Shown one piece after another: positions 575 through 11,855 of a DNA stretch of 64,000 bases. The notes under the pieces were generated by a model. That model was not told the origin of the DNA. It saw only the letters and a program-made list of their open reading frames with translations, and did no database searches. Location of the stretch: positions 124,001 through 188,000 of the forward strand of contig NZ_JABBPD010000008.1 in NCBI RefSeq assembly GCF_012927445.1, given 5' to 3'. The stretch's first letter is position 1; each line of letters begins with the position of its first letter. This DNA is from Rhodoferax sp. GTDB taxonomy: Bacteria > Pseudomonadota > Gammaproteobacteria > Burkholderiales > Burkholderiaceae_C. The translations under genes and the position numbers were made by a program.

Positions 575-2461
575 ATGGACAAGAAGCACACCTGGAACCT
601 TGGCTACTGGGCCATTGCGCTGATGCTGCTACTGCTACTCCAGGACGTCTGGCAAAGCGCGACGCAAGTGCAGACCGTACCCTACAGTGAGTTTGAGAAA
701 GCCCTGCGTGAGGGCCGCGTGGCCGATATCACCGTTTCTGACCGCACCCTTGTTGGCCGGCTAAAAATCCCCGATGGAAACAAGACCCTGCTGGTTGCGG
801 CGCGGGTAGAGCCCGACTTGGCGGCTCGACTGGAAAAATTTGATGTGCCTTACACCCGGGTCGTTGACAACACGTTCTTGAAAGACTTGATGTCGTGGAT
901 CGTGCCGGCGTTGGTGTTTTTTGGATTATGGTTTTTTCTGTTTCGCCGCTTTGCTGACAAGCAAGGCATGGGCGGATTTTTGTCGATTGGCAAAAGCCGC
1001 GCAAAAATTTACGCCCAGACCAATACGGGCATTACCTTTGCCGACGTGGCTGGCGTCGATGAAGCCAAGCATGAGCTGGAAGAGGTGGTAGATTTTCTCA
1101 AGCACCCGCAGGAATATGGTCGTCTGGGTGCCCACATTCCCAAAGGGGTGCTGCTCGTGGGGCCGCCCGGTACGGGCAAGACGCTGCTGGCCAAGGCGGT
1201 GGCGGGCGAGGCGGATGTGCCCTTCTTTTCGATCTCGGGAAGTGAATTCGTCGAGATGTTTGTCGGCGTCGGTGCTGCCAGGGTGCGTGACCTGTTCGAG
1301 CAAGCTCGACTGAAAGCTCCCGCTATTATTTTCATTGATGAACTGGACGCGTTGGGCCGCGCCCGCGGTGCCTTCCCCGGACTGGGCGGGCACGATGAAA
1401 AAGAGCAAACGCTGAACCAGTTGCTCGCTGAAATGGATGGGTTCGATTCGTCGGTCGGGCTGATTATTTTGTCGGCGACCAATCGGCCAGAAATACTTGA
1501 CCCGGCACTGCTGCGGGCCGGCCGCTTTGATCGGCAGGTGCTGGTGGATCGTCCGGACCGGAAAGGCCGTACCGACATCCTGAAGGTTCATGTGCGCAAG
1601 GTCAAGCTCGACGCGGTACTGCGGCTTGAGGACGTGGCTGCCCTGACCCCGGGTTTCAGTGGGGCTGACCTGGCCAACCTTGTGAATGAGGCCACGCTGG
1701 TGGCTACCCGGCGCAAAGCAGATCAGGTGACGATGCCTGATTTCACTGCCGCTGTGGAACGCATCGTTGCGGGACTGGAGCGAAGAAGTCGCGTGCTCAA
1801 CCCCAAAGAGCGAGAGGCCGTTGCGTTTCACGAGATGGGCCACGCCCTGGTGGCGCTGGCGCAGACAGGGACTGATCCTGTGCACAAGGTGTCGATCATC
1901 CCGCACGGCATCGGGGCATTGGGCTACACCATTCAACGTCCGACCGAAGACCGCTATCTCGTGACGCGGCCCGAACTGGAGCAGAAAATCGCCGTTCTGC
2001 TGGGGGGGCGGGCCGCTGAAAAATTGGTGTTTGACGTGCTCTCCACCGGGGCAGCTGATGACCTTGCCAAGGCGACTGATATTGCCCGCGACATGGTGAC
2101 CCGCTATGGCATGGATGAGGGTTTGGGCTATGTCGCCTACGAGCCTGCGCGCCAGCAGATGCTCGATCTACCGGCCGGCATGCTGCCCCGCGACAGCGCG
2201 GCATCGGAAGACACGCAACGGCGCATCGACAACGCAATCCGCTGCATTGTGATGGATGGTTTTGACCGTGCGAGCACCATTCTGAGCGCCAACCGTGAGG
2301 TGCTTGAGCGCGGCGCACGTTCACTGCTTGAGAAAGAAACGCTGGACGAGGCGGCACTCCGGGACTTGAGCGCTCAACTCCAGCGCGTCGATTCAAATCA
2401 GTCGCTGCAAATGAGGCTGCCGCTGGACGATCAACCTGCGCCAACGCGTCATCCAGCCTGA
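575..2461 (+). CDS. ftsH: ATP-dependent zinc metalloprotease FtsH (paralogue type)
   Basis: Membrane-anchored AAA+ protease that extracts and degrades membrane and misfolded proteins. In its 628 residues I see TM1 (about 10-26), a small periplasmic domain, TM2 (about 107-125), an AAA domain with Walker A GPPGTGKT (about 195-202), Walker B IIFIDE (about 250-255) and an SRH region (RAGRFDRQV), then the peptidase zinc motif HEMGH at about 419-423. A later Asp in [11 protein letters not shown] fits the third zinc ligand. The start has a good ribosome site (GGAAGGTGAC-ATG). The sequence before TM1 is short and the tail is proline-rich. Its position among stress genes suggests an accessory FtsH rather than the housekeeping copy, which normally sits beside rlmE; this is inference. 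Confidence 0.93.
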
Positions 2462-2530: not shown

Positions 2531-2572
2531 TTGCGATTCATCAATCGGTTTAAGCGTTTTTTTGGCTACGCT
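2531..2572 (+). promoter_or_regulatory. FNR-like site and promoter of the RNR-like gene
   Basis: TTGCGATTCATCAA at 2531-2544, then 22 bp, then the -10-like hexamer TACGCT at 2567-2572. The site would be centred near -41.5, the class II activation position of CRP/FNR-family regulators. Exactly 58 bp separate it from the ATG at 2603. The same site and spacings recur at three other promoters in this cluster. I infer the regulator from resemblance to TTGAT-N4-ATCAA. Confidence 0.7.
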
Positions 2573-2602
2573 GAATCTTTGTATCGATTTGGACCGCACA
2601 CC

Positions 2603-4360
2603 ATGCAGACGAACCCCTTTCATGCGCCAATCTCAGAACATGTCTGGCGTACCAAGTACCAGTGGTGTGAGGGCGGACACATGCAGGAGCCTTCCATCGA
2701 GGCCACTTGGGATCGGGTTGCTCTGGCAGTCTCGGGTGCAGAGGCGCATCACCACAACGATTGGCGCGAGCGCTTCCGGGCTATTTTGAGTGATTTTCGG
2801 TTCTTGCCTGCCGGCCGCATCCTGGCGGGTGCCGCGACCTCGCGCAGTACCACCTTGTTCAATTGCTTTGTCATGGGACCGATGGAGGATTCAATCCCCG
2901 GTATTTTCAATGCCTTGCGCGATGCCATGGTGACGCTGCAGGCCGGTGGTGGGGTCGGGATTGATTTCTCTACCTTGAGGCCAGCAGGTGCATTAGCCTT
3001 GTCCAGTGGTGGCGTTGCCACCGGGCCGGTCTCTTTCATGGCCATCTGGGACGAAGCGAACGCGGTGCTGGAAACGAACAACCTGCGCCGCGGGGCCATG
3101 ATGGCCACGTTGCGCTGTGATCACCCCGACATTGAGTCGTTTATAGACTCAAAAATTGCCAAAGGCGCATTGCCGCATTTCAAGATGTCGGTTTTGGTGA
3201 CGGACGAATTCATGCGCGCTGTTGAGGAAGACGGCCCGTGGCCACTGGTCTTTCCCTTGGGCGGGAATTCCATTCCCGTGGGCGGTGAGGTGTGTGAGCG
3301 GGTGTGGTCCGGTGGCATGACGCCACAGCTTTGTCTGGTGCATCGGCGCCTGCCGGCCCGCGCCTTGTGGGAAAAACTCCTGGAGGCGCAATATACAAGT
3401 TCTGAACCCGCAGTTCTATTCATTGACCGGATCAATAGTGCCAACAATCTTTGGTACTGCGAGAACCTGTATGCATCCAATCCTTTTGGCGAAATTCCAC
3501 TGCCCCCCTATGGGGCCTGTAACCTGGGATCCCTCAATTTGACCCGGTTTGTGCAGCATCCCTTTGCCGAGCATCCGCGTGTCGATTTTGGTGATTTGCG
3601 CGCCGTAGCTTCTGTTGCTACGCGGTTTTTGGACAATGTGCACGATATTTCCTTGTTCCCGCTCAAGGCCCAGGAGAAAGCAGCCGGTGCCAGCCGACGA
3701 ATCGGCCTGGGTGTTACCGGTTTGGCCGATATGTTTGCCATGCTGGGCTTGCGCTACGGCTCGCAGGCGAGTATCAATCTGACCCACCAGATCATGAGCA
3801 CGATCAGAGACACGGCCTACCGCACGTCCATCGCGATAGCGCAGGAAAAAGGAGCATTCCCGGAGTTTGACAAGATTAAATATGGCGCCAGCCCCTTTGT
3901 ACTGGCGCTTTCTCATGATATTCAGGATGCGATTTCTCAGCACGGCATTCGCAATAGCCATCTGCTGGCGGTGGCCCCCACGGGCTCCATCAGCTTGCTT
4001 GCCAACAATGTGTCGAGCGGTATTGAGCCCATTCATGCATTCAAGACCCAACGTTGCGTGCGGGGGGCTGATGGCCAGGAAGTAACTTTTGATGTGGAAG
4101 ATGCGGCGTGGTACCAGTACAAGGCGTTACATGGCGCCAGTGCCGTGCTGCCTGCGCACTTTGTGCAGTCAGCCGATGTCTGCGCCGAAGATCAGTTGCA
4201 CATGATGGCCATGGTGCAGTCCTGTGTGGATAACGCAATTTCCAAATCGTTAGTGCTGCCGGAAAGCGCCAGTGCACAGGACATAGGCCTGGTCTTGTTG
4301 CAAGCCTGGGAGCTGGGACTTAAAGGGATTTCGGTCTTCCGGACGGGACCGGGATCGTGA
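2603..4360 (+). CDS. nrdJ: Class II (B12-type) ribonucleotide reductase-like protein lacking the radical cysteine
   Basis: Homologous to adenosylcobalamin-dependent ribonucleotide reductase, which makes deoxyribonucleotides without oxygen. I chose the ATG at 2603 (585 residues) because the protein then begins like family members (MQTNPFHAPISEHVW) and the promoter spacing matches its neighbours. The half of the redox pair in FNCFV (C88) and the one in GACNLGS (C306) are present. The loop that is normally NPCGE reads NPFGE, so the thiyl-radical position is Phe295 (codon 3485-3487). The flanking Asn and Glu are kept. The protein ends at KGISVFRTGPGS, without the C-terminal CxxC tail. No ATP cone is seen. 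It may be a non-catalytic or repurposed paralogue; family membership is certain, function is not. Confidence 0.85.
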   Translation: MQTNPFHAPISEHVWRTKYQWCEGGHMQEPSIEATWDRVALAVSGAEAHHHNDWRERFRAILSDFRFLPAGRILAGAATSRSTTLFNCFVMGPMEDSIPGIFNALRDAMVTLQAGGGVGIDFSTLRPAGALALSSGGVATGPVSFMAIWDEANAVLETNNLRRGAMMATLRCDHPDIESFIDSKIAKGALPHFKMSVLVTDEFMRAVEEDGPWPLVFPLGGNSIPVGGEVCERVWSGGMTPQLCLVHRRLPARALWEKLLEAQYTSSEPAVLFIDRINSANNLWYCENLYASNPFGEIPLPPYGACNLGSLNLTRFVQHPFAEHPRVDFGDLRAVASVATRFLDNVHDISLFPLKAQEKAAGASRRIGLGVTGLADMFAMLGLRYGSQASINLTHQIMSTIRDTAYRTSIAIAQEKGAFPEFDKIKYGASPFVLALSHDIQDAISQHGIRNSHLLAVAPTGSISLLANNVSSGIEPIHAFKTQRCVRGADGQEVTFDVEDAAWYQYKALHGASAVLPAHFVQSADVCAEDQLHMMAMVQSCVDNAISKSLVLPESASAQDIGLVLLQAWELGLKGISVFRTGPGS

Positions 4361-4373
4361 GTCAGTTGAATGC

Positions 4374-4396
4374 AAGCCAGCAGCAAACCTGGCTTT
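4374..4396. terminator. Hairpin between convergent nrdJ-like gene and usp
   Basis: Seven-bp inverted repeat AAGCCAG / CTGGCTT with an eight-base loop, placed between two convergent stop codons. There is no clear T-run, so termination is only suggested. Confidence 0.35.
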
Positions 4397-4409
4397 GAAC
4401 GATTCAAGT

Positions 4410-4838
4410 TTACTTGGTAAGGAGCACCGGGACTGCTGACTGATGAATGACCCGTTGGGCCACCGAGCCCAGGATCATGTTGCCCACAGCGCCCATGCCC
4501 CGAGTACCCATGGCAATCTGGTCAACCTGCCTGTCGTTGGCGATGCGTACGATTTCATTGGCAATGACGCCATAAGCGCGTGCTGGCTCGCCAAGCTTGA
4601 GCCCTTGCGTCTTGGCTAACTCCGTAGCTTTGGTCAGGACGGCATTTTGCTGCTGTTTTTGATCTTCTTCTATCTTCTGAATAGTGGCAACGGTGTAGTC
4701 ACCATAAAAAATGGGCTCAGGGCTGACGCAGACCAGAATGGCCTCCAGGTCAAGGGAAGAGCGGGCCATTTTCCCAACGGCCTCAACGGCCCGGTTGGCA
4801 TGTTCAGATCCATCAACTGCAATCAAAATTTTCAACAT
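4410..4838 (-). CDS. Universal stress protein, UspA family
   Basis: Small cytoplasmic nucleotide-binding stress protein of 142 residues, one Usp domain. It starts MLKILIAVDGSEHA and carries the ATP-binding pattern G-2x-G-9x-G(S) (GTRG...LGS) near residue 117-130, so it belongs to the ATP-binding rather than the UspA-type non-binding class. The aspartate after the first strand (VDGS) is also present. It is the last gene of a probable operon groEL - host-attachment - usp, 56 bp after the preceding stop. Such proteins are commonly induced by oxygen limitation under FNR/ANR control, which fits the site upstream of groEL. The exact role cannot be read from sequence. Confidence 0.9.
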   Translation of the reverse strand: MLKILIAVDGSEHANRAVEAVGKMARSSLDLEAILVCVSPEPIFYGDYTVATIQKIEEDQKQQQNAVLTKATELAKTQGLKLGEPARAYGVIANEIVRIANDRQVDQIAMGTRGMGAVGNMILGSVAQRVIHQSAVPVLLTK

Positions 4839-4894
4839 ACTGTTCTCCTCTTTAGATATTTTTACTTAACCGTTTTAACTCAAGATGTCGCGCA

Positions 4895-5353
4895 CTAATC
4901 GGGTAGCTGCAAGGCATGGTTGACGCGCTCTTTCAACTCCGGACCCGTGTAATGCGTCAGATCGCTCGCGACACATTTGCGCAGAATTTTTTCAGTCGCA
5001 CTGGTTAAGCAGGGCCTGATCTCACCCAACATTGGACTGGAGGCAATCAGCACGAGTCCGTTGCAGCGTTGCTCTGCCACGGCCTCGTTGAGATAGGCCG
5101 CAAGTTGTCGGGCAAAACTGCCACGCTCTTTGGCGTGGGCCTCGGTGTGGGGTTCAAACTGCGTGCCCGCATGTCCCGTGCGACCATGCCCCTTGCCGGC
5201 TGCGCCTGTCAGATCGCCCCCACTGGCCTCGCTCGAAATGCTGGTTTGGGGAAAGACGAAATCAGCCAACTCGGTGAGTGCGTGATCAGGGGCATGGCGC
5301 TCGAAGCAACGGGCTCGATGGGCATCTGTTATTAATATCCAGGTCTTTTCCAT
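4895..5353 (-). CDS. Host attachment family protein (PF10116 type)
   Basis: A 152-residue soluble protein of the family named for an Agrobacterium-type host-attachment phenotype. It begins MEKTWILITDAHRARCFE, the usual opening of that family, followed by a low-complexity Gly/His-rich middle (about 45-75) and a C-terminal half with LVLIASSPMLGEIR and a final YTGPELKERVNHAL helix. No signal peptide is present despite the name. It lies 24 bp after groEL and ahead of usp. Family members often sit in stress and low-oxygen clusters beside universal stress proteins. A direct role in attachment should not be assumed here. Confidence 0.8.
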   Translation of the reverse strand: MEKTWILITDAHRARCFERHAPDHALTELADFVFPQTSISSEASGGDLTGAAGKGHGRTGHAGTQFEPHTEAHAKERGSFARQLAAYLNEAVAEQRCNGLVLIASSPMLGEIRPCLTSATEKILRKCVASDLTHYTGPELKERVNHALQLPD

Positions 5354-5377
5354 AATTTTTCTTTCCTCTTGCGCTTG

Positions 5378-7012
5378 TTAAAACACAGGTGCACCGGCAT
5401 TGGAGCCGAGCATTCCTTCGTCAGTTACTTGCTTGGGTGCCGTGGCAATCATGCAATCCGTGGTGAGAATCAGGCTGGCGATGGACGCTGCGTTTTGCAG
5501 TGCCAATCGTGTGACCTTGGCTGGGTCGATCACGCCCATTTGCAACAGATCACCGTAAGTGCGAGTGGCTGCGTTGTAGCCAAAGGCCTGGTCCGGCGAC
5601 TCGTCGACCCGGTTGAGAATCACGGATGGCTCATCTCCCGCGTTGCTCACGATGCGGCGCAGCGGCTCTTCAAGCGCGCGCGACACCAGGCGAATGCCTG
5701 AGGTTTCATCGAGGGTACTGCCTGTGAGTTCAGTCAAGACACGACGCGCCCGCAGCAAGGCAACACCGCCGCCTGGCACGATGCCCTCTTCAATAGCCGC
5801 ACGTGTGGCATGCAAGGCGTCTTCTACACGCAGCTTGCGCTCTTTCAATTCGGTTTCAGTGGCCGCGCCGACTTTGATCAGGGCCACCCCGCCGGACAAC
5901 TTGGCGGCACGCTCATCAAGCTTTTCACGGTCATAGTCACTGGTGGCCAACTCGCGTTCTCGACGAATGGTGGCAATCCGCTCGCTGATCACCTTAGGCA
6001 GACCAGCGCCACCGATTAACGTGGTGTTTTCTTTGGTGATCTCAGCGCGTGTGGCGCGTCCCAGATCTGAGAGTTTGACTTTTCCCAGTGTCAAGCCAAC
6101 TTCATCGCTGACCACCGTGCCTCCGGTCAGAACCGCAATATCCTGCACCATGGACTTGCGTCGATCACCAAATCCCGGCGCCTTGACGGCGCAGGTTCTC
6201 AGCGTGCCCCGGATCGTATTGATGACCAGTGCCGCCAGTGTGTCGTTGTCAACCTCCTCGGCGATCACCAGCAAGGGCCGACCTTCCTTCACGATTTCCT
6301 CTAACAGGGGTAGCAGATCCTTCAAGGACGTCAGACGGCCTTCACACAGCAAGATCGAGACGTCTTCCAATACTGCGCTTTGCCGTTCAGCATTATTGAT
6401 GAAGTAGGGCGATAGAAAGCCCCGGTCAAACTGCATGCCTTCCACCACTTCCAGCACACTGACCAAGCCGGAACCATCTTCGATGGAGATCGCGCCTTCG
6501 CGTCCCACCTTGTCAATGGCACTGGCCAGCAGGTCGCCAATCGAACGGTCATTGTTGGCTGAGATCGCTGCGACGTGCGCAATCTCCTGAGAAGTGGCAC
6601 AGGGCTTTGACATCCGTTTTAGTTCTGCAACCACCGTCTCGATGGCCAACTCAATGCCACGCTTTAAATCCATCGGATTCATGCCACCCGCCAGATAACG
6701 CAAACCCTCCTGAATCATGCCGTGGGCCAGCACCGTGGCGGTGGTGGTGCCGTCGCCTGCCATCTCGCTGGTACGGGCGGCTACCTCGCGCAGCAATTGC
6801 GCGCCCATGTTCTCAAACCGGTCTTCAAGCTCAATCGACTTGGCCACCAGTACGCCTGAGTTCACGATCTGTGGCGGTCCAAAGTCACGTTCCAGAATGA
6901 CGGTGCGCCCGCGTGGCCCCAAAGTCACTTTGACCGCCTCAGCCAACGCATCCACTCCGCGCCGAATTTTTTCTCGGGCGGCGTCGTGGAATATAAGCTG
7001 TTTGGGTTTCAT
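5378..7012 (-). CDS. groEL: GroEL-type chaperonin, orphan paralogue
   Basis: Chaperonin of 544 residues that folds proteins in an ATP-driven double ring. The signature regions are intact: [13 protein letters not shown] near residue 31, [11 protein letters not shown] near 86, GGGVALLRA, and [12 protein letters not shown] near the end. The start is the ATG at 7012; a TTG further upstream is less likely and would break the shared promoter spacing. Two things differ from housekeeping GroEL: no groES lies beside it, and the C-terminus ends SNAGAPVF, without the Gly-Gly-Met tail. It leads an operon with a host-attachment protein and a universal stress protein, so it is probably a condition-specific chaperonin. 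Confidence 0.93.
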
Positions 7013-7042
7013 GGTCTCAATACATTGGCCGACTATGTGCAA

Positions 7043-7084
7043 ATATTAGAGTTGGTGTTCAAGCGGCCGGTTGACAAATCGCAA
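7043..7084 (-). promoter_or_regulatory. FNR-like site and promoter of the groEL operon
   Basis: In the direction of groEL the site reads TTGCGATTTGTCAA (7084-7071). Twenty-two bp later comes TAATAT as a -10 element (7048-7043), and 58 bp separate the site from the ATG at 7012. The arrangement matches the RNR-like promoter exactly. Confidence 0.7.
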
Positions 7085-7123
7085 CGGCACCGGCAAGGCG
7101 TTTTTCGAGCCGATTCTGGCAAG

Positions 7124-7537
7124 TCACGTCGCATTTTTTCGATAGTTTTCGATGCCGCTCTTGAGCTGCTCAAGTGATTTGACGAACGACATTTTTAACT
7201 GAGTCCAGGACTCCACTGTGCCTGACTTCAGCGCCATCAGTTGCTGCTGCGTATCACGTAACTTGGTTTCAAGTTTTTCAATCTCTTCACCAAGCTGAAC
7301 TTTGGTTTGCTGGTTGGCCGATGCAACCTTTGCTTTAAGTTCTGCAATAACATTTCGCAGATCATCCAACTCCTTCTGTGCGGCTTGAGAATAGGCCTCA
7401 TGTTCTCCCTGGCTGACTTGGTCTGACGGCGCCGGTGGCTTCTGCAGTTGAGGTTGCGGTGGCTTGATCTTGTCGCACGCAACGCCGCTGAAGGCCAAAG
7501 CAATGACGACGCCGGTGGTGGATAACAATCGTTTCAT
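7124..7537 (-). CDS. Putative exported coiled-coil protein (possible lipoprotein)
   Basis: A 137-residue protein of unknown function. It has a basic start and hydrophobic stretch (MKRLLSTTGVVIALAFSG) followed by VACDK; the lipobox-like GVAC is imperfect, so lipid attachment is possible rather than certain. A proline-rich linker (about 27-40) leads into a long amphipathic coiled coil (about 48-105). It is 18 bp downstream of the glycine-zipper lipoprotein gene and probably translated from the same mRNA. I infer a periplasmic or outer-membrane-associated location. I do not recognise a named family. Confidence 0.6.
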   Translation of the reverse strand: MKRLLSTTGVVIALAFSGVACDKIKPPQPQLQKPPAPSDQVSQGEHEAYSQAAQKELDDLRNVIAELKAKVASANQQTKVQLGEEIEKLETKLRDTQQQLMALKSGTVESWTQLKMSFVKSLEQLKSGIENYRKNAT

Positions 7538-7555
7538 GGTGTTTCCTTTTTGAGC

Positions 7556-8017
7556 CTAATTGCGCACCTGCCAACTACCATCTGGCTGCCGACACGCGGT
7601 GCCGAATACCTTGTCTTTTCTGCCGGCAATCATGGCATCAATGCTGTAATCCCTGCAAGGTCCTGAGGCCGTCTCAAAGGTGCGCGTGGGCACCACTACA
7701 TATTGATTGCCGCTGTCCGGATTTCTCCATGACGAGGGCACACCCGTTCTGACGGTTTCAAGTGTCTGCGCGGTTCTCAGTCTGTCGACTTCGGCCATCG
7801 AGTTGCCGACTGAACCCCCCACCGCGGCGCCGGCAAGGCTTCCCAGAATGATGGCCGCAGTGCGTCCATCACCATGGCCAACTTGCGACCCTAGAACGCC
7901 ACCCAGCAAACCGCCAATCACCATGCCCGTTTGTTCCTGCTGGCTCTGGTAGTTTGCACACCCGGACAGCAGCAGGGCGCACATTCCGGCCATACCGAAA
8001 GATTTAAATTGCCACAT
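7556..8017 (-). CDS. Glycine-zipper lipoprotein, 17-kDa surface antigen type
   Basis: A 153-residue outer-membrane lipoprotein. The signal peptide ends in a good lipobox LLSGC (Cys about 20). A glycine-zipper pair follows (GGLLGGVLGSQVG and LGSLAGAAVGGSVG, about 35-75), and then a small C-terminal domain with two cysteines (GPCRDY, GTACRQ) and the final WQVRN typical of the surface-antigen family. Members are thought to sit in the outer membrane and affect envelope stability. It is the first gene of a two-gene operon reading away from the BON gene, with a CRP/FNR-like palindrome 80 bp upstream. Confidence 0.82.
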   Translation of the reverse strand: MWQFKSFGMAGMCALLLSGCANYQSQQEQTGMVIGGLLGGVLGSQVGHGDGRTAAIILGSLAGAAVGGSVGNSMAEVDRLRTAQTLETVRTGVPSSWRNPDSGNQYVVVPTRTFETASGPCRDYSIDAMIAGRKDKVFGTACRQPDGSWQVRN

Positions 8018-8320
8018 ACCAAAACTCCTTTAGTCCACATTGCTGGACGCACAATCATTTGACTTTTGTATGTTGCGCCCCACGCTGGGGAAAATATTGA
8101 GAAACGTCAAATACTCCGGCAGAAACTCTTTTCGGCCTCCCTCGTATGGGATCGGCTTGTTTGGGGTATTGCTACTGATAGGGGAAGACGCCATCTCGTA
8201 TGTCTTGTCAGACTTTGAGAATTCTCAAAAAAGAAAAATTCAGCTTTAACTAAAGTTGCCCGGGCGTTTGAAATTCATGCCGGCCTGACGGCGAAAAGCC
8301 ATACTTGGAGGAGATATCTT
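8018..8320. other. Divergent promoter region with CRP/FNR-like palindrome
   Basis: About 300 bp without a credible gene between the lipoprotein operon and the BON gene. It holds TTGAGAAACGTCAA at 8097-8110 (TTGA-N6-TCAA). This differs in its inner bases from the other four sites and lacks their -10 spacing, so I rate it lower. A 69-codon frame at 8040-8249 has no ribosome site and no recognisable domain. Confidence 0.5.
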
Positions 8321-8560
8321 ATGAGGTCAGATGCAGACTTAAAGGCGGACTTGATGGAGCGGCTGGACGCGATACCTGCCGTCAATGCTTCGGATATTGA
8401 AGTCATGGTTGACAATGGCTTGGTCACCTTGAGCGGTCAGGTTGACACGCATCAAACAAGATTTCAGGTCGAGCGAACGGCCCGGCGCGTGTCTGGCATG
8501 CGAGGTCTTGAGATCAACGTAAAACCCAGTCAGCTCGCTTCAAAAAAGCATCACCATTAG
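8321..8560 (+). CDS. BON-domain protein
   Basis: A 79-residue protein that is essentially one BON domain: an alpha helix (ADLKADLMERLDAI), then ASDIEVMVDNGLVTLSGQVDT with the conserved Gly and the turn before the second helix. It lacks a signal peptide, so it would be cytoplasmic, unlike OsmY. BON domains bind phospholipids or other membrane components and are common in osmotic and low-oxygen stress clusters. A strong ribosome site (TTGGAGGAG) precedes the ATG. It ends in a short Lys/His-rich tail. The role is inferred only from domain and context. Confidence 0.82.
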   Translation: MRSDADLKADLMERLDAIPAVNASDIEVMVDNGLVTLSGQVDTHQTRFQVERTARRVSGMRGLEINVKPSQLASKKHHH

Positions 8561-8589
8561 TCGATTTGATAACAAGTTATCTGGATTGA

Positions 8590-8620
8590 CAGCCCTGCGA
8601 CCTGCAGGGCTGAGGGTGGT
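8590..8620. terminator. Hairpin between BON gene and small coiled-coil gene
   Basis: Perfect nine-bp inverted repeat CAGCCCTGC / GCAGGGCTG (8590-8598 and 8604-8612) between convergent genes. A TTTTATT stretch follows seven bases later on the + strand, so it most likely ends BON transcription. Confidence 0.5.
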
Positions 8621-8625
8621 TTTAT

Positions 8626-8835
8626 TCAGCAAGCGGGACCTTGCGCCGACGTGATTTGTTGCAACAACTTTTGAACAACTTCCTCGGTGTTTTTTCGTTT
8701 GACCAGATCAGTTTCAAACTGCAAGTCTTTCAGGGACAGTGACAACTCGACGAGTGCATCGCGTAGTTCAAACAAGGCTGAACTGACCTCCTGCATTGCG
8801 CCTGCCATATTTGTTCTGGATTCTGAGTCTTTCAT
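8626..8835 (-). CDS. Small coiled-coil protein of the stress cluster
   Basis: A 69-residue soluble protein with heptad-like leucines and acidic/basic residues (ALFELRDALVELSLSLKDLQFETDLVKRK), probably one long helix with a C-terminal helical tail (TEEVVQKLLQQI). I placed the start at 8835 because a near-perfect AGGAGG ribosome site lies just before that ATG and because the FNR-like promoter is then 58 bp away, as for two neighbouring genes. I do not recognise the family. Its position next to lon and its promoter suggest a stress accessory or adaptor, which is inference. Confidence 0.65.
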   Translation of the reverse strand: MKDSESRTNMAGAMQEVSSALFELRDALVELSLSLKDLQFETDLVKRKNTEEVVQKLLQQITSAQGPAC

Positions 8836-8865
8836 TGCCCACCTCCTGATTCTTGACATGAACTA

Positions 8866-8907
8866 ACTTTAGCGAGGCCACACCGGTTGCTGGATGATTA
8901 ATCGCAA
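8866..8907 (-). promoter_or_regulatory. FNR-like site and promoter of the small coiled-coil gene
   Basis: In the gene's direction the site reads TTGCGATTAATCAT (8907-8894), one base short of the full right half-site. TAAAGT follows 22 bp later (8871-8866) as a -10 element, and the ATG at 8835 is 58 bp away. The site overlaps the last codons of lon. Confidence 0.6.
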
Positions 8908-11330
8908 ATTGGCGCGTTGACTTCGGCAATCGCTACGCGCACGGCTTCCTCGACGTCGTCCAAAAAAACGAACTCCAGCTGTTGTCGGGCTTGTTGCGGT
9001 ACATCTTCCAGGTCTTTTCTATTGCGCGTGGGGATCATCACAGTTTTGATACCGGCCGCCAGGGCCGCCAGTACTTTTTCCTTGATGCCGCCAACCGGTA
9101 AAACTAAGCCACGCAGACTTATTTCACCGGTCATTGCGACGTCGTTGCGCACCGGTCGGTCCATGAAGAGGGAGGCCAGTGCAATGAACATGGCGACGCC
9201 TGCGCTGGGCCCGTCTTTGGGAATCGCTCCGGCCGGGACATGGATGTGAACGTCTGTTTTTTCGAAAACAGCGGCGTCTAAATTTAACGTTGCCACTCTT
9301 GATTTCACCAGGGTCAGCGCCGCTTGCGCCGACTCTTTCATGACATCACCCAGTTGTCCGGTCAAGATCAGCCGACCACTGCCGGCGGTGCGGCTGGCTT
9401 CAATGAACAGAATGTCGCCCCCGACGGGTGTCCATGCCAAGCCGGTGGCAACGCCCGGCATGCCAGCCCGCAAGGCGACTTCATTCTCGAACTTGGCCAG
9501 CCCGAGGAGTTCTGCCAGGTCCGGCGCGTCAACGCGGGCCGTTTGGGTTTCACCCTCGGCAATGCGAACGGCGATACGGCGACACACGGCGCCAATCTGG
9601 CGCTCCAGACTGCGCACGCCCGCTTCGCGTGTGTAGTCGCGAATGATGGCGGCAATGGCGCCGTCCGTGATCTCCAGTTGTTCAGGCTTGAGACCACTTT
9701 CCGCGAGTTGACGCGTCACCAGGTAGCGGCGTGCGATCTCGCGTTTTTCTTCCTGCGTGTAACCAGCCAGGTGCAAGACCTCCATGCGGTCGCGCAAGGG
9801 GCCGGGGATGGGGTCGAGTATGTTGGCCGTGGCAATGAACAGAACTTGCGACAGGTCGTAGGGGACCGCCAGGTAGTTGTCACGGAAGGTGTTGTTTTGC
9901 TCCGGGTCCAGCACCTCCAGCAGCGCGGCTGACGGGTCGCCATGAATGCCGGTGCCGAGCTTGTCAATTTCATCGAGCATCATGACGCAGCCGCGGGTGC
10001 CGGCTTTTTTCAGCGCCTGAATGATGTTGCCGGGCAGGGCGCCAATGTAGGTGCGCCGGTGTCCGCGGATTTCTGCCTCGTCATGCACGCCGCCCAGAGA
10101 CACCCGTACGAATTTGCGGCCGAGGGCTTTGGCGATGGATTGCCCGAGCGAGGTTTTGCCGACCCCGGGCGGTCCCACCAGGCAAAGAATCGGGCCGTGG
10201 CCGCCGGGGTTGAGCTTGCGCACGGCGAGAAACTCGAGAATGCGTTTTTTTACCTGATCGAGTCCGAAGTGATCGGCATCCAGCACGCGACGCGCCTGCG
10301 CGACATCGATGGCATCTGGTTCCGGGGTTTTCCAGGGTAATTCGACCAGCCAATCGAGGTAAGTGCGGACCATCGAATATTCGGAAGATCCCTCCGGCAT
10401 GCGCTCCAGCCGTTTGAGTTCTTTCTCCGCCTGCTTCGCGACTTCTTCCGGCATGTTCGCCTCGGCGATCATTTTGCGCAGTTCGTTGACTTCAGCGGCA
10501 TTGCTGCCGCCGTCCTCCCCCAGTTCTTTTTGAATCGATTTCAGTTGTTCGCGCAGCAAGAACTCTCGCTCCCGCTGTCCCAGACTGGCTTTGGTGCGCT
10601 TGTCGATGTCGCGCGAGAGCTCCATGACTTCAATGCGGTGCATCAGCATTTCAAGCACCCGGTCCATCCGCATTTTGAGATCTACCTCTTCCAGCAAGGC
10701 CTGTTTCTCGGACGCTTTGATATCGACATAGCCGGCAACCAGGTCGGCCAGCATGCCGGGGGCATCGACGCCCTGGACTGCATTCACCATTTCCTGCGGC
10801 ACTTGGGGCAGCAGCTGCAAGACCTCAACGGCACGCTCCTTGAGCCGCATGAAGCGCGCCTCAATTTCCTTGTCGTCTTTAACCACGGCTTCAACAATGC
10901 GCTCAATTTTTGCGACGGTGAACGGGAATCCGTCCAGAAACCCGATCACGCGAAAGCGTTGCTGGCCCTGACAAATGATGTGGTGCGTGCCATCGGGTGT
11001 GGTGACGTAGCGCAGGATGGAGGCGATGGTGCCGACGCGGGACAAATCATCCGGCCCGGGGGCGTCCACCTCCGGGTTGCGTTGCATCAGGATGCCGATC
11101 GGCCGCTCCGCCTTGATTGCGTACTGAGCCGCTGCAATCGAGCTTTCACGACCGATGGCAATCGGCACAATCATGCCGGGAAACAGCACCATGTTGCGCA
11201 CCGGCACAATGGCCATCGCGTCATCGGGGATGGCGAGCGCTTCGCCGGATGCGTTCGCCAGCGCTGCCGCGTTGACCTTGTCCGCCTCGGGATTGGTATC
11301 TTTGTTTTCCAGCAGCTTAATCTGATTCAT
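8898..11330 (-). CDS. lon: ATP-dependent protease La (LonA)
   Basis: Soluble AAA+ serine protease that removes damaged and regulatory proteins. At 810 residues it is full length: N-terminal LON substrate domain (about 35-240), helical linker, AAA module with Walker A GPPGVGKT (386-393) and Walker B VMMLDEID, and a peptidase domain with the Ser-Lys dyad in DGPSAG (Ser709) and GGIKEK (Lys752). The start codon overlaps the hsp20 stop (ATGA), so the two are translationally coupled. The first 40 residues form an unstructured acidic extension. Because this lon lies in a stress cluster rather than beside clpX, it may be a second copy; the window cannot confirm that. Confidence 0.96.
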   Translation of the reverse strand: MNQIKLLENKDTNPEADKVNAAALANASGEALAIPDDAMAIVPVRNMVLFPGMIVPIAIGRESSIAAAQYAIKAERPIGILMQRNPEVDAPGPDDLSRVGTIASILRYVTTPDGTHHIICQGQQRFRVIGFLDGFPFTVAKIERIVEAVVKDDKEIEARFMRLKERAVEVLQLLPQVPQEMVNAVQGVDAPGMLADLVAGYVDIKASEKQALLEEVDLKMRMDRVLEMLMHRIEVMELSRDIDKRTKASLGQREREFLLREQLKSIQKELGEDGGSNAAEVNELRKMIAEANMPEEVAKQAEKELKRLERMPEGSSEYSMVRTYLDWLVELPWKTPEPDAIDVAQARRVLDADHFGLDQVKKRILEFLAVRKLNPGGHGPILCLVGPPGVGKTSLGQSIAKALGRKFVRVSLGGVHDEAEIRGHRRTYIGALPGNIIQALKKAGTRGCVMMLDEIDKLGTGIHGDPSAALLEVLDPEQNNTFRDNYLAVPYDLSQVLFIATANILDPIPGPLRDRMEVLHLAGYTQEEKREIARRYLVTRQLAESGLKPEQLEITDGAIAAIIRDYTREAGVRSLERQIGAVCRRIAVRIAEGETQTARVDAPDLAELLGLAKFENEVALRAGMPGVATGLAWTPVGGDILFIEASRTAGSGRLILTGQLGDVMKESAQAALTLVKSRVATLNLDAAVFEKTDVHIHVPAGAIPKDGPSAGVAMFIALASLFMDRPVRNDVAMTGEISLRGLVLPVGGIKEKVLAALAAGIKTVMIPTRNRKDLEDVPQQARQQLEFVFLDDVEEAVRVAIAEVNAPICD

Positions 11331-11731
11331 TTCAGTCGCTCGAGGGTGAGTTTCAGGCAGCCGTTTTCCAGCAGGATTTCAGTGAGTTGAAAGCTGCCGA
11401 AAGGCAATCGGATGCGGCGCTCAAAGCGCCCGTAAGGAATTTCCAGCCGGAGAATGGCGCCCGGGCCCAAGCTGGCCCCAAATGAACGCTCGCCGCGTAC
11501 CACAATTGCCTGCTGCTCCAGGGCAACTTCAAAGCGCTCCGGCGCGACTCCCGGTAACGCAATGAGCAAGCCAACCTCGCGGTCGTTCACATACATGTCG
11601 ACCGGCGGCTCCCAGCAGGGTGATTCGCTGGGCTGGCCAATCTGGAAAAACTGGCGATTGAGCCGGTCTGCCGTCTGAAGCAGTTCGACGGCTTCAGCCA
11701 GCATCCACGCGCTCGGGTCAGGGTGTCGCAT
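11327..11731 (-). CDS. Small heat-shock protein, Hsp20/alpha-crystallin family
   Basis: An ATP-independent holdase of 134 residues that keeps unfolded proteins soluble. The alpha-crystallin domain spans about residues 43-133: it opens PPVDMYVNDREVGLLIALPGV and closes with ENGCLKLTLERL, the usual last strands. The C-terminal I-x-I anchoring extension is missing, because the protein stops right after the domain. The N-terminal arm is short. It is the first gene of the hsp20-lon operon and shares its upstream region with the divergent cfa gene. Coupling a holdase to Lon suggests that bound clients are passed on for degradation, which is inference. Confidence 0.9.
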   Translation of the reverse strand: MRHPDPSAWMLAEAVELLQTADRLNRQFFQIGQPSESPCWEPPVDMYVNDREVGLLIALPGVAPERFEVALEQQAIVVRGERSFGASLGPGAILRLEIPYGRFERRIRLPFGSFQLTEILLENGCLKLTLERLK

Positions 11732-11785
11732 TCATTTTCCTTTTCTTTTCAGTTTCCTTCTGGCAACTATCGAGACTGTTTTGCA

Positions 11786-11855
11786 AGCGTAAGTTCCCCC
11801 CCCTTGTGGATGCTTGATAAATCGCAAAAGGGCCGGCTTCCACTGGTTCGACTAT
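11786..11855. promoter_or_regulatory. Shared FNR-like site between hsp20-lon and cfa
   Basis: TTGATAAATCGCAA at 11814-11827. Towards hsp20 it reads TTGCGATTTATCAA and is followed 22 bp later by TACGCT, the same -10 hexamer as at the RNR-like promoter; the hsp20 ATG is 82 bp away. Towards cfa, GACTAT lies at the same 22-bp spacing (11850-11855), so the site could serve both directions. Confidence 0.65.

Follow-up and report, generated by a model that had tools for sequence, protein, structure and literature searches.

What controls a locus in which genes for chaperones, proteases and a ribonucleotide reductase stand close together? The question is raised by a stretch of 64,000 nucleotides from the genome of a Rhodoferax water bacterium (G000, an assembly of 3.94 Mb in 10 contigs; positions C4:124001-188000), which we call the window. 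At four promoters within 9.3 kb of it the motif TTGCGATT-N2-TCA(A/T) can be read in the sequence: those of nrdJ, of a groEL paralogue (groEL2), of a gene for a small coiled-coil protein and of hsp20B-lon. An earlier note on this DNA had pointed to four oriented sites, and all four are present as it wrote them. We suggest that they are class II FNR-type activator sites of a low-oxygen or energy-stress locus. Most likely they would serve a cascade leading from a kinase to CRPx, our name for an FNR homologue without cluster cysteines, with CRPx binding alone or together with Anr. We put the probability of this reading at roughly 55%.

Sites and promoter geometry

The sites and the -10-like hexamers that follow them are these (window positions):

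2531..2544, + strand: class II FNR-like site TTGCGATTCATCAA of nrdJ, read in the sequence and kept in relatives
2567..2572, + strand: -10-like TACGCT of nrdJ, 22 bp past the site
7071..7084, - strand: site TTGCGATTTGTCAA of the groEL paralogue (GroEL2), read in the sequence, orthologous promoters compared
7043..7048, - strand: -10-like TAATAT of groEL2, 22 bp past the site
8894..8907, - strand: site TTGCGATTAATCAT of the small coiled-coil gene, ending in TCAT
8866..8871, - strand: -10-like TAAAGT of the small coiled-coil gene, 22 bp past the site
11814..11827, - strand: site TTGCGATTTATCAA of hsp20-lon, read in the sequence, orthologous promoters compared
11786..11791, - strand: -10-like TACGCT of hsp20-lon, 22 bp past the site

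Class II promoters of the CRP/FNR family have their site centred at about -41.5, and this is the spacing found at the window sites. A TAnnnT hexamer stands at the 22-bp gap in 4/4 of them, and at no other gap in a scan from 5 to 44 bp. Judged by this gap, the sites have the class II arrangement (centre about 41.5 bp upstream, 21-22 bp before the -10), the transcription starts being predicted ones. The four hexamers and their exact 22-bp gap agree with the earlier note, as do the distances from site to start codon: 58 bp for nrdJ, groEL2 and the small coiled-coil gene, 82 bp for hsp20B.

The canonical FNR/Anr box, TTGAT-N4-ATCAA, is matched by none of the four window sites. They depart from it in the distal half, at positions 4-5; this half reads TTGCG in all four, and the proximal half is ATCAA, GTCAA or ATCAT. 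The NnrR box, TTGCG-N4-CGCAA, is absent as well, the CGCAA half being found in 0/4. The site of the small coiled-coil gene (8894-8907) overlaps the final codons and the stop of lon.

Frequency of the pattern

The window has four copies of the pattern TTGCGATTNNTCA[AT]+N22+TAnnnT. None appeared in 300 dinucleotide shuffles, where the site alone had a mean of 0.02 per shuffle and a maximum of 2. These shuffles rule out a chance origin of site and gap together. Exact TTGCGATTNNTCAA is found four times in the 3.94-Mb genome, three of them in the window.

A genome-wide scan had been proposed by the earlier note. If one mismatch is allowed, the motif turns up 39 times in the genome and its reversed control 8 times; the loose motif by itself is therefore no rarity. 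The full pattern, TTGCGNNTNNTCAA followed at 21-23 bp by TAnnnT, has four (hsp20A, nrdJ, groEL2, hsp20B), all within C4:115972-135827, and the reversed control has none. When TTG-N7-TCAA is required with TAnnnT at 21-23 bp, the genome holds 35 places against 8 for the control. TTGCG makes up 4/5 of these in the locus and 1/30 elsewhere (Fisher p 0.0005), and the single TTGCG site outside the locus sits inside an open reading frame (ORF).

Conservation in relatives

Relatives keep the site before orthologues of nrdJ, hsp20A, groEL2, the small coiled-coil gene and hsp20B. In the loci found by CRPx homology, the orthologues of nrdJ, hsp20A, groEL2 and the small gene have it wherever the promoter is readable. 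Because orthologous promoters keep the site, the motif likely marks a conserved regulon in these relatives, and the proposal of the earlier note, an FNR-family class II regulon with sites centred near -41.5, appears well backed by this promoter conservation. TACGCT is the -10 in 8/12 of the nrdJ promoters that have the site.

The fixed dimensions that had been proposed do not survive the comparison. Among the 35 sites with a distal TTGCG in relatives and own genome, the gap is 21 bp in 18 and 22 bp in 17. Leaders, measured from the ORF starts called in this analysis and omitting orthologues with a called ORF that starts before the site, are 48, 51 and 57 bp for nrdJ; 55, 59 and 27 for groEL2; 58, 58, 51 and 43 for the small coiled-coil gene; and 69, 69 and 39 for hsp20B. 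These varied lengths refute the 58-bp leader as a constraint, yet it recurs in 2/4 of the small-gene orthologues measured.

Nor is the asymmetry strict, as had been thought. The count took in TTG-N8-CA(A/T) sites that stand before recognised orthologues and have TAnnnT 21 or 22 bp downstream, with identical 44-base stretches removed and orthologues without such a site outside the total. Of 52 sites in all stretches, 35 have a distal TTGCG only, 5 a proximal CGCAA only, 5 both and 7 neither, many of the stretches having been picked by motif and nrdJ-like rows at 42% and 52% identity being included. Because of the picking by motif, the loci found by CRPx homology alone (L126-L142) were counted separately: their 14 sites comprise 13 with distal TTGCG, none with proximal CGCAA, none with both and one with neither.

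At orthologous promoters TTGCG is exchanged with TTGAG or TTGTG, and reversed and symmetric sites exist. The half-site of the gene for a BON-domain protein is TTGAG in the own genome, G200 and G609, and TTGCG in G202, G652, G216 and G027. An AMP-binding enzyme has TTGAGAAATATCAA in the own genome versus TTGCGAATAATCAA in G667 (the two enzymes were taken as orthologues from their aligned starts), and an exchange is also seen between orthologous promoters of the small coiled-coil gene. In G688 (L341:13279-18362) the promoters of nrdJ-like and cfa genes carry symmetric TTGCG-N4-CGCAA sites, not hybrids. A search for groEL2 in 399 genomes of the order found at least five copies of 70-80% identity in four genomes outside the own, the others listed reaching at most 66%; only one of those five (in G114) has a class II site close upstream, TTGATCATGCTCAA.

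Further members

One regulon within 9 kb had been envisaged. A regulon it would remain, but a larger one, with a BON gene inside the window and two hsp20 genes to its left:

8215..8228, + strand: fifth site, TTGAGAATTCTCAA, with TAAAGT at 22 bp (8251-8256), preceding the BON gene; TTGCGAATTCTCAA in several relatives
8321..8560, + strand: BON-domain protein of 79 aa (PF04972), previously overlooked, too short for the ORF list

The BON gene runs against the direction of its neighbours and has its own FNR-like site; a small-RNA reading of the site at 8215 was dropped once the gene was found. The two hsp20 genes have sites about 8 and about 13 kb left of the window start. A sixth site, TTGCGAGTTATCAA, precedes hsp20A with a 21-bp gap (C4:115972-116012), and a third hsp20 (C4:111253; L041:11253-11859) has the reversed hybrid TTGACAATCCGCAA with a 22-bp gap. 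Far from the locus, one class II TTGCG-N4-CGCAA site is found in the own genome: an encapsulin-associated ferritin-like gene (TIGR04535; L125:2505-2925, G000 C2:826504 onwards) is preceded by the symmetric TTGCGATTTCGCAA, with TACGCT 22 bp further on.

Candidate regulators

Which protein might bind these sites? CRPx is encoded just left of the window, beside a histidine kinase with a PAS domain and a LuxR-type response regulator; a domain search assigns HisKA_3 to the kinase and GerE to the regulator. No CxxC was found at the N-terminus of the own CRPx or of 16 distinct orthologues examined (L126-L141). Against the Fnr model CRPx scores 114 bits, below the cut-off of 228, and the solved structures nearest to it by sequence are FNR-type regulators, followed by FixK2. 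Its cysteines C126 and C143 are invariant in the three orthologues aligned (alignment A2), and a redox role for them is conceivable. In G027 (L213:919-3422) the kinase (59%) and the response regulator (81%) are kept, with no CRPx beside them.

Anr (L031) is of the Fe-S type, with an N-terminal CxxCxxxxxC in KVACSNCNLRELC; an N-terminal CxxC is present in 5/5 Anr sequences examined. The own genome also has a DNR-like protein, L035, and other CRP-type proteins. The names Anr and DNR-like were assigned from sequence.

The earlier note suspected a particular member of the CRP/FNR family. The presence of CRPx in the locus makes this plausible, although three genomes have the motif without a close copy of it. 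Close CRPx orthologues occur in 3/200 genomes of the family, the own one included. Among 19 CRPx loci in named genomes, 17 are at 64-92% identity and two at 45%, and the close copies come for the most part from records named as Rhodoferax or as unspecific beta-proteobacterial bins. The own genome and the 19 reached by CRPx homology (two of them Oxalobacteraceae-type records at 45% identity, and one place being duplicated on two contigs) have 61 motif matches, with at least one in 19/20; the reversed control gave 1 match in 21 genomes scanned. In the draw from the family, 197 genomes without close CRPx have 32 matches, and the reversed control has 16 in all 200. In the draw from the genus (89), matches are present in 14/14 genomes with known CRPx (49 in all) and in 27/70 others (43 in all), of which G667 and G673 also carry CRPx; the reversed control has 5 in 89. 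CRPx genomes were recognised here by identical match places, and five in which CRPx was first seen via the motif were set aside. On these counts CRPx appears to track the motif; binding by Anr alone and by Anr with CRPx would both fit.

A number of observations weigh against CRPx as the binder. G027, G061 and G173 have 7, 2 and 2 motif matches (11 of the 32) and no close CRPx. G061 and G173 hold a different cysteine-less FNR homologue, at about 32% identity. For G027, 8 of 9 above-cut-off CRP-type matches were examined (the ninth and 6 below cut-off being outside the set), and only Anr and a DNR-like protein among them have an FNR-type recognition motif. Conversely, G213 has CRPx at 72% and no motif match in the genome scan. 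Ten motif-bearing genomes of the genus showed no CRPx in the partial stretches fetched (G629, G634, G640, G650, G653, G670, G676, G678, G687 and G688). The gene for CRPx shares its locus with the supposed targets, and the co-occurrence is therefore partly co-inheritance. The recognition core ETVSR is common to CRPx and Anr, hence nothing in the protein explains TTGCG, and the swap of TTGCG and TTGAG at orthologous promoters would also be explained by a single tolerant Anr. As proven sole binder, CRPx is ruled out by G027, G061 and G173 and by G213.

Alternative explanations

It is possible, though we hold it to be unlikely, that Anr alone binds all the sites, TTGCG being a tolerated variant of the half-site and CRPx acting elsewhere. 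Anr was found in the own genome and in all four compared, among them the three motif-bearing genomes without close CRPx, and so it counts as a possible binder. Lopsided sites, for example TTGAG..ATCAA, occur outside the locus in the own genome too, and half-sites are exchanged at the orthologous BON, AMP-binding enzyme and small coiled-coil promoters. What Anr alone would leave unaccounted for is the concentration of TTGCG in the own locus (4/5 versus 1/30) and the case of G121, which has Anr yet a single motif match in 4.9 Mb; within the genus, moreover, the motif goes with CRPx, a correlation confounded by the presence of the locus itself. A special case of the preferred CRPx cascade is that of oriented heterodimers, CRPx on the distal TTGCG and Anr on the proximal TCAA, with two signals that must coincide. 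We regard it as rather doubtful. The excess of distal-only sites agrees with it (35/52, many stretches having been picked by motif, and 13/14 in the CRPx-only set), and the stretch SREIVxE of the dimer helix is common to the own Anr and CRPx. A precedent is offered by Herbaspirillum seropedicae, where residues of this helix govern a specific Fnr1-Fnr3 interaction that possibly acts on hybrid sites (PMC5934665); the match of SREIVxE to the published residues is our own reading. However, reversed and symmetric sites exist at the same spacing, three genomes have the motif without close CRPx, and the reported half-site preferences of Fnr3 (C/G at position 6, C/T at position 7) are not seen here, where position 6 is A in 34/40 and position 7 is T or A in 32/40. 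About as doubtful is a two-signal gate in which CRPx (distal), produced through the kinase cascade, would pair with the oxygen-sensing Anr (proximal) on the lopsided sites, and the chaperones, proteases and oxygen-independent ribonucleotide reductase would be made only on both loss of oxygen and a second signal.

The TTGCG halves of NnrR boxes might also suggest a regulator of the nitric-oxide type (DNR/NnrR-like, candidate L035); we find it quite improbable. Boxes of nnrR-dependent genes in Bradyrhizobium, such as TTGCGCTATCGCAA, TTGCGCGAGCGCAA and the hybrid TTGCGCGACATCAA before rpoN1 (PMC6710368), would suit such a protein, as would the symmetric TTGCG-N4-CGCAA before the own encapsulin-associated ferritin and before nrdJ-like and cfa of G688. 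Yet no window site has the CGCAA half, and L035 has an orthologue in G121 too. Both L035 and the CxxC protein L038 were rejected as binders, their orthologues being present in that genome with its one match. Heat-shock control by sigma-32 or CIRCE behind the groEL, lon and hsp20 promoters would draw on gene functions only and is very improbable: the first 13 kb contain no sigma-32-like match (TTGA[AC], 11-16 bp, CCCCAT), and the closest approach to CIRCE within the first 16 kb, with 5 mismatches, falls at about 12.9 kb and not near these promoters.

Genes of the locus

The genes of the locus within the window are the following, together with the BON gene above:

575..2461, + strand: FtsH protease, in the same locus, upstream of nrdJ
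2603..4360, + strand: NrdJ, adenosylcobalamin-dependent (class II) ribonucleotide reductase, TIGR02504 above cut-off
4410..4838, - strand: universal stress protein (PF00582), downstream of groEL2
4895..5353, - strand: host-attachment-like protein (PF10116), between groEL2 and the universal stress protein
5378..7012, - strand: GroEL paralogue (chaperonin), GroEL2, PF00118, TIGR02348 above cut-off
8626..8835, - strand: 69-aa protein, coiled-coil by the earlier note's description, start 58 bp past its site
8898..11330, - strand: Lon protease, TIGR00763 above cut-off
11327..11731, - strand: Hsp20 family protein, Hsp20B (PF00011)

The 69-aa protein had no match in an NCBIfam search, and no site of the scanned form was found before ftsH in the own genome. 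The interval from hsp20A to ftsH holds the genes for the PAS histidine kinase, the response regulator, CRPx and a universal stress protein, and two more whose products, a CheB/CheR-like and a PAS-GGDEF protein, owe their names to sequence and not to a family search. The CheB/CheR-like gene (L042:5276-7586) consists of several overlapping frames here and of one frame of 862-881 aa in relatives such as L314 and L326; it may be interrupted or misassembled in the own genome.

Likeness to known systems

Among known systems the lxa locus of Burkholderia cenocepacia appears to come closest. It has, as here, a block of stress genes, a heat-shock protein and an FNR protein of its own; it includes six universal stress proteins, and FNR-box-like motifs precede many genes induced by low oxygen (PMC4505428, PMC9104464, PMC8509486). 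The Burkholderia FNR proteins keep the cluster cysteines (PMC4505428), unlike CRPx. The combination of universal stress proteins with an own FNR homologue is found in our locus as two such proteins and CRPx. Sites of Group III Fnr in H. seropedicae are also lopsided and have universal stress targets in an organism with two FNR paralogues, but both of these are of the Fe-S type, and their sites favour other bases at positions 6 and 7 than we see in our own set (PMC5934665); what is shared is the hybrid layout. Bradyrhizobium NnrR boxes share the TTGCG half, and the one before rpoN1 is a hybrid TTGCG..ATCAA; the others listed pair TTGCG with CGCAA or ACAA (PMC6710368), whereas TCAA is found here.

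The locus, with a PAS kinase, a LuxR-type regulator and a cysteine-less CRP/FNR protein side by side, also recalls FixL-FixJ-FixK, in which FixK is without an Fe-S cluster. The kinase here is, however, of the HisKA_3 type, and the curated models are not reached (103 bits for the response regulator against FixJ, cut-off 255; 43.7 bits for CRPx against FixK, cut-off 300). Mycobacteria offer another comparison, the DosR/DevR dormancy regulon, which includes a regulator of the LuxR type, Hsp20 and a reductase of class II. Six universal stress proteins belong to this hypoxia regulon (PMC8509486). In our locus the last activator in the chain seems instead to be of the FNR kind and not a response regulator. 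No description of the locus or motif in Rhodoferax was seen among the titles and abstract openings listed, which is weak evidence of absence, since Rhodoferax was rarely targeted. The locus seems to be one more survival gene cluster of a known type, with a landing site that is unusually lopsided.

Proposed mechanism and meaning

If the CRPx cascade is correct, the trigger would be a lack of oxygen or some signal sensed by the PAS kinase, and the level of active CRPx and/or Anr would rise. CRPx, alone or with Anr, would bind the sites near -41.5 and, through class II contacts, bring in RNA polymerase. The output would be more Hsp20s, GroEL2 and Lon (with FtsH nearby), oxygen-independent ribonucleotide reductase, universal stress proteins and the BON protein. 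Such an output would favour survival over growth. What the sequences show are the sites with their spacing and conservation, the genes present, the missing cluster cysteines of CRPx and its co-occurrence with the motif; activation, the low-oxygen signal, the order from kinase to CRPx and the identity of the binder are inferred from them.

What makes the locus noteworthy is the combination of lopsided, exchangeable half-sites with a cysteine-less partner. If true, a conserved regulon of Rhodoferax would tie protein quality control and the supply of DNA precursors to an FNR-type signal. It would also provide a natural set of orthologous promoters with exchanged half-sites, by which one could test how cluster-bearing and cluster-less FNR paralogues divide or share their sites.

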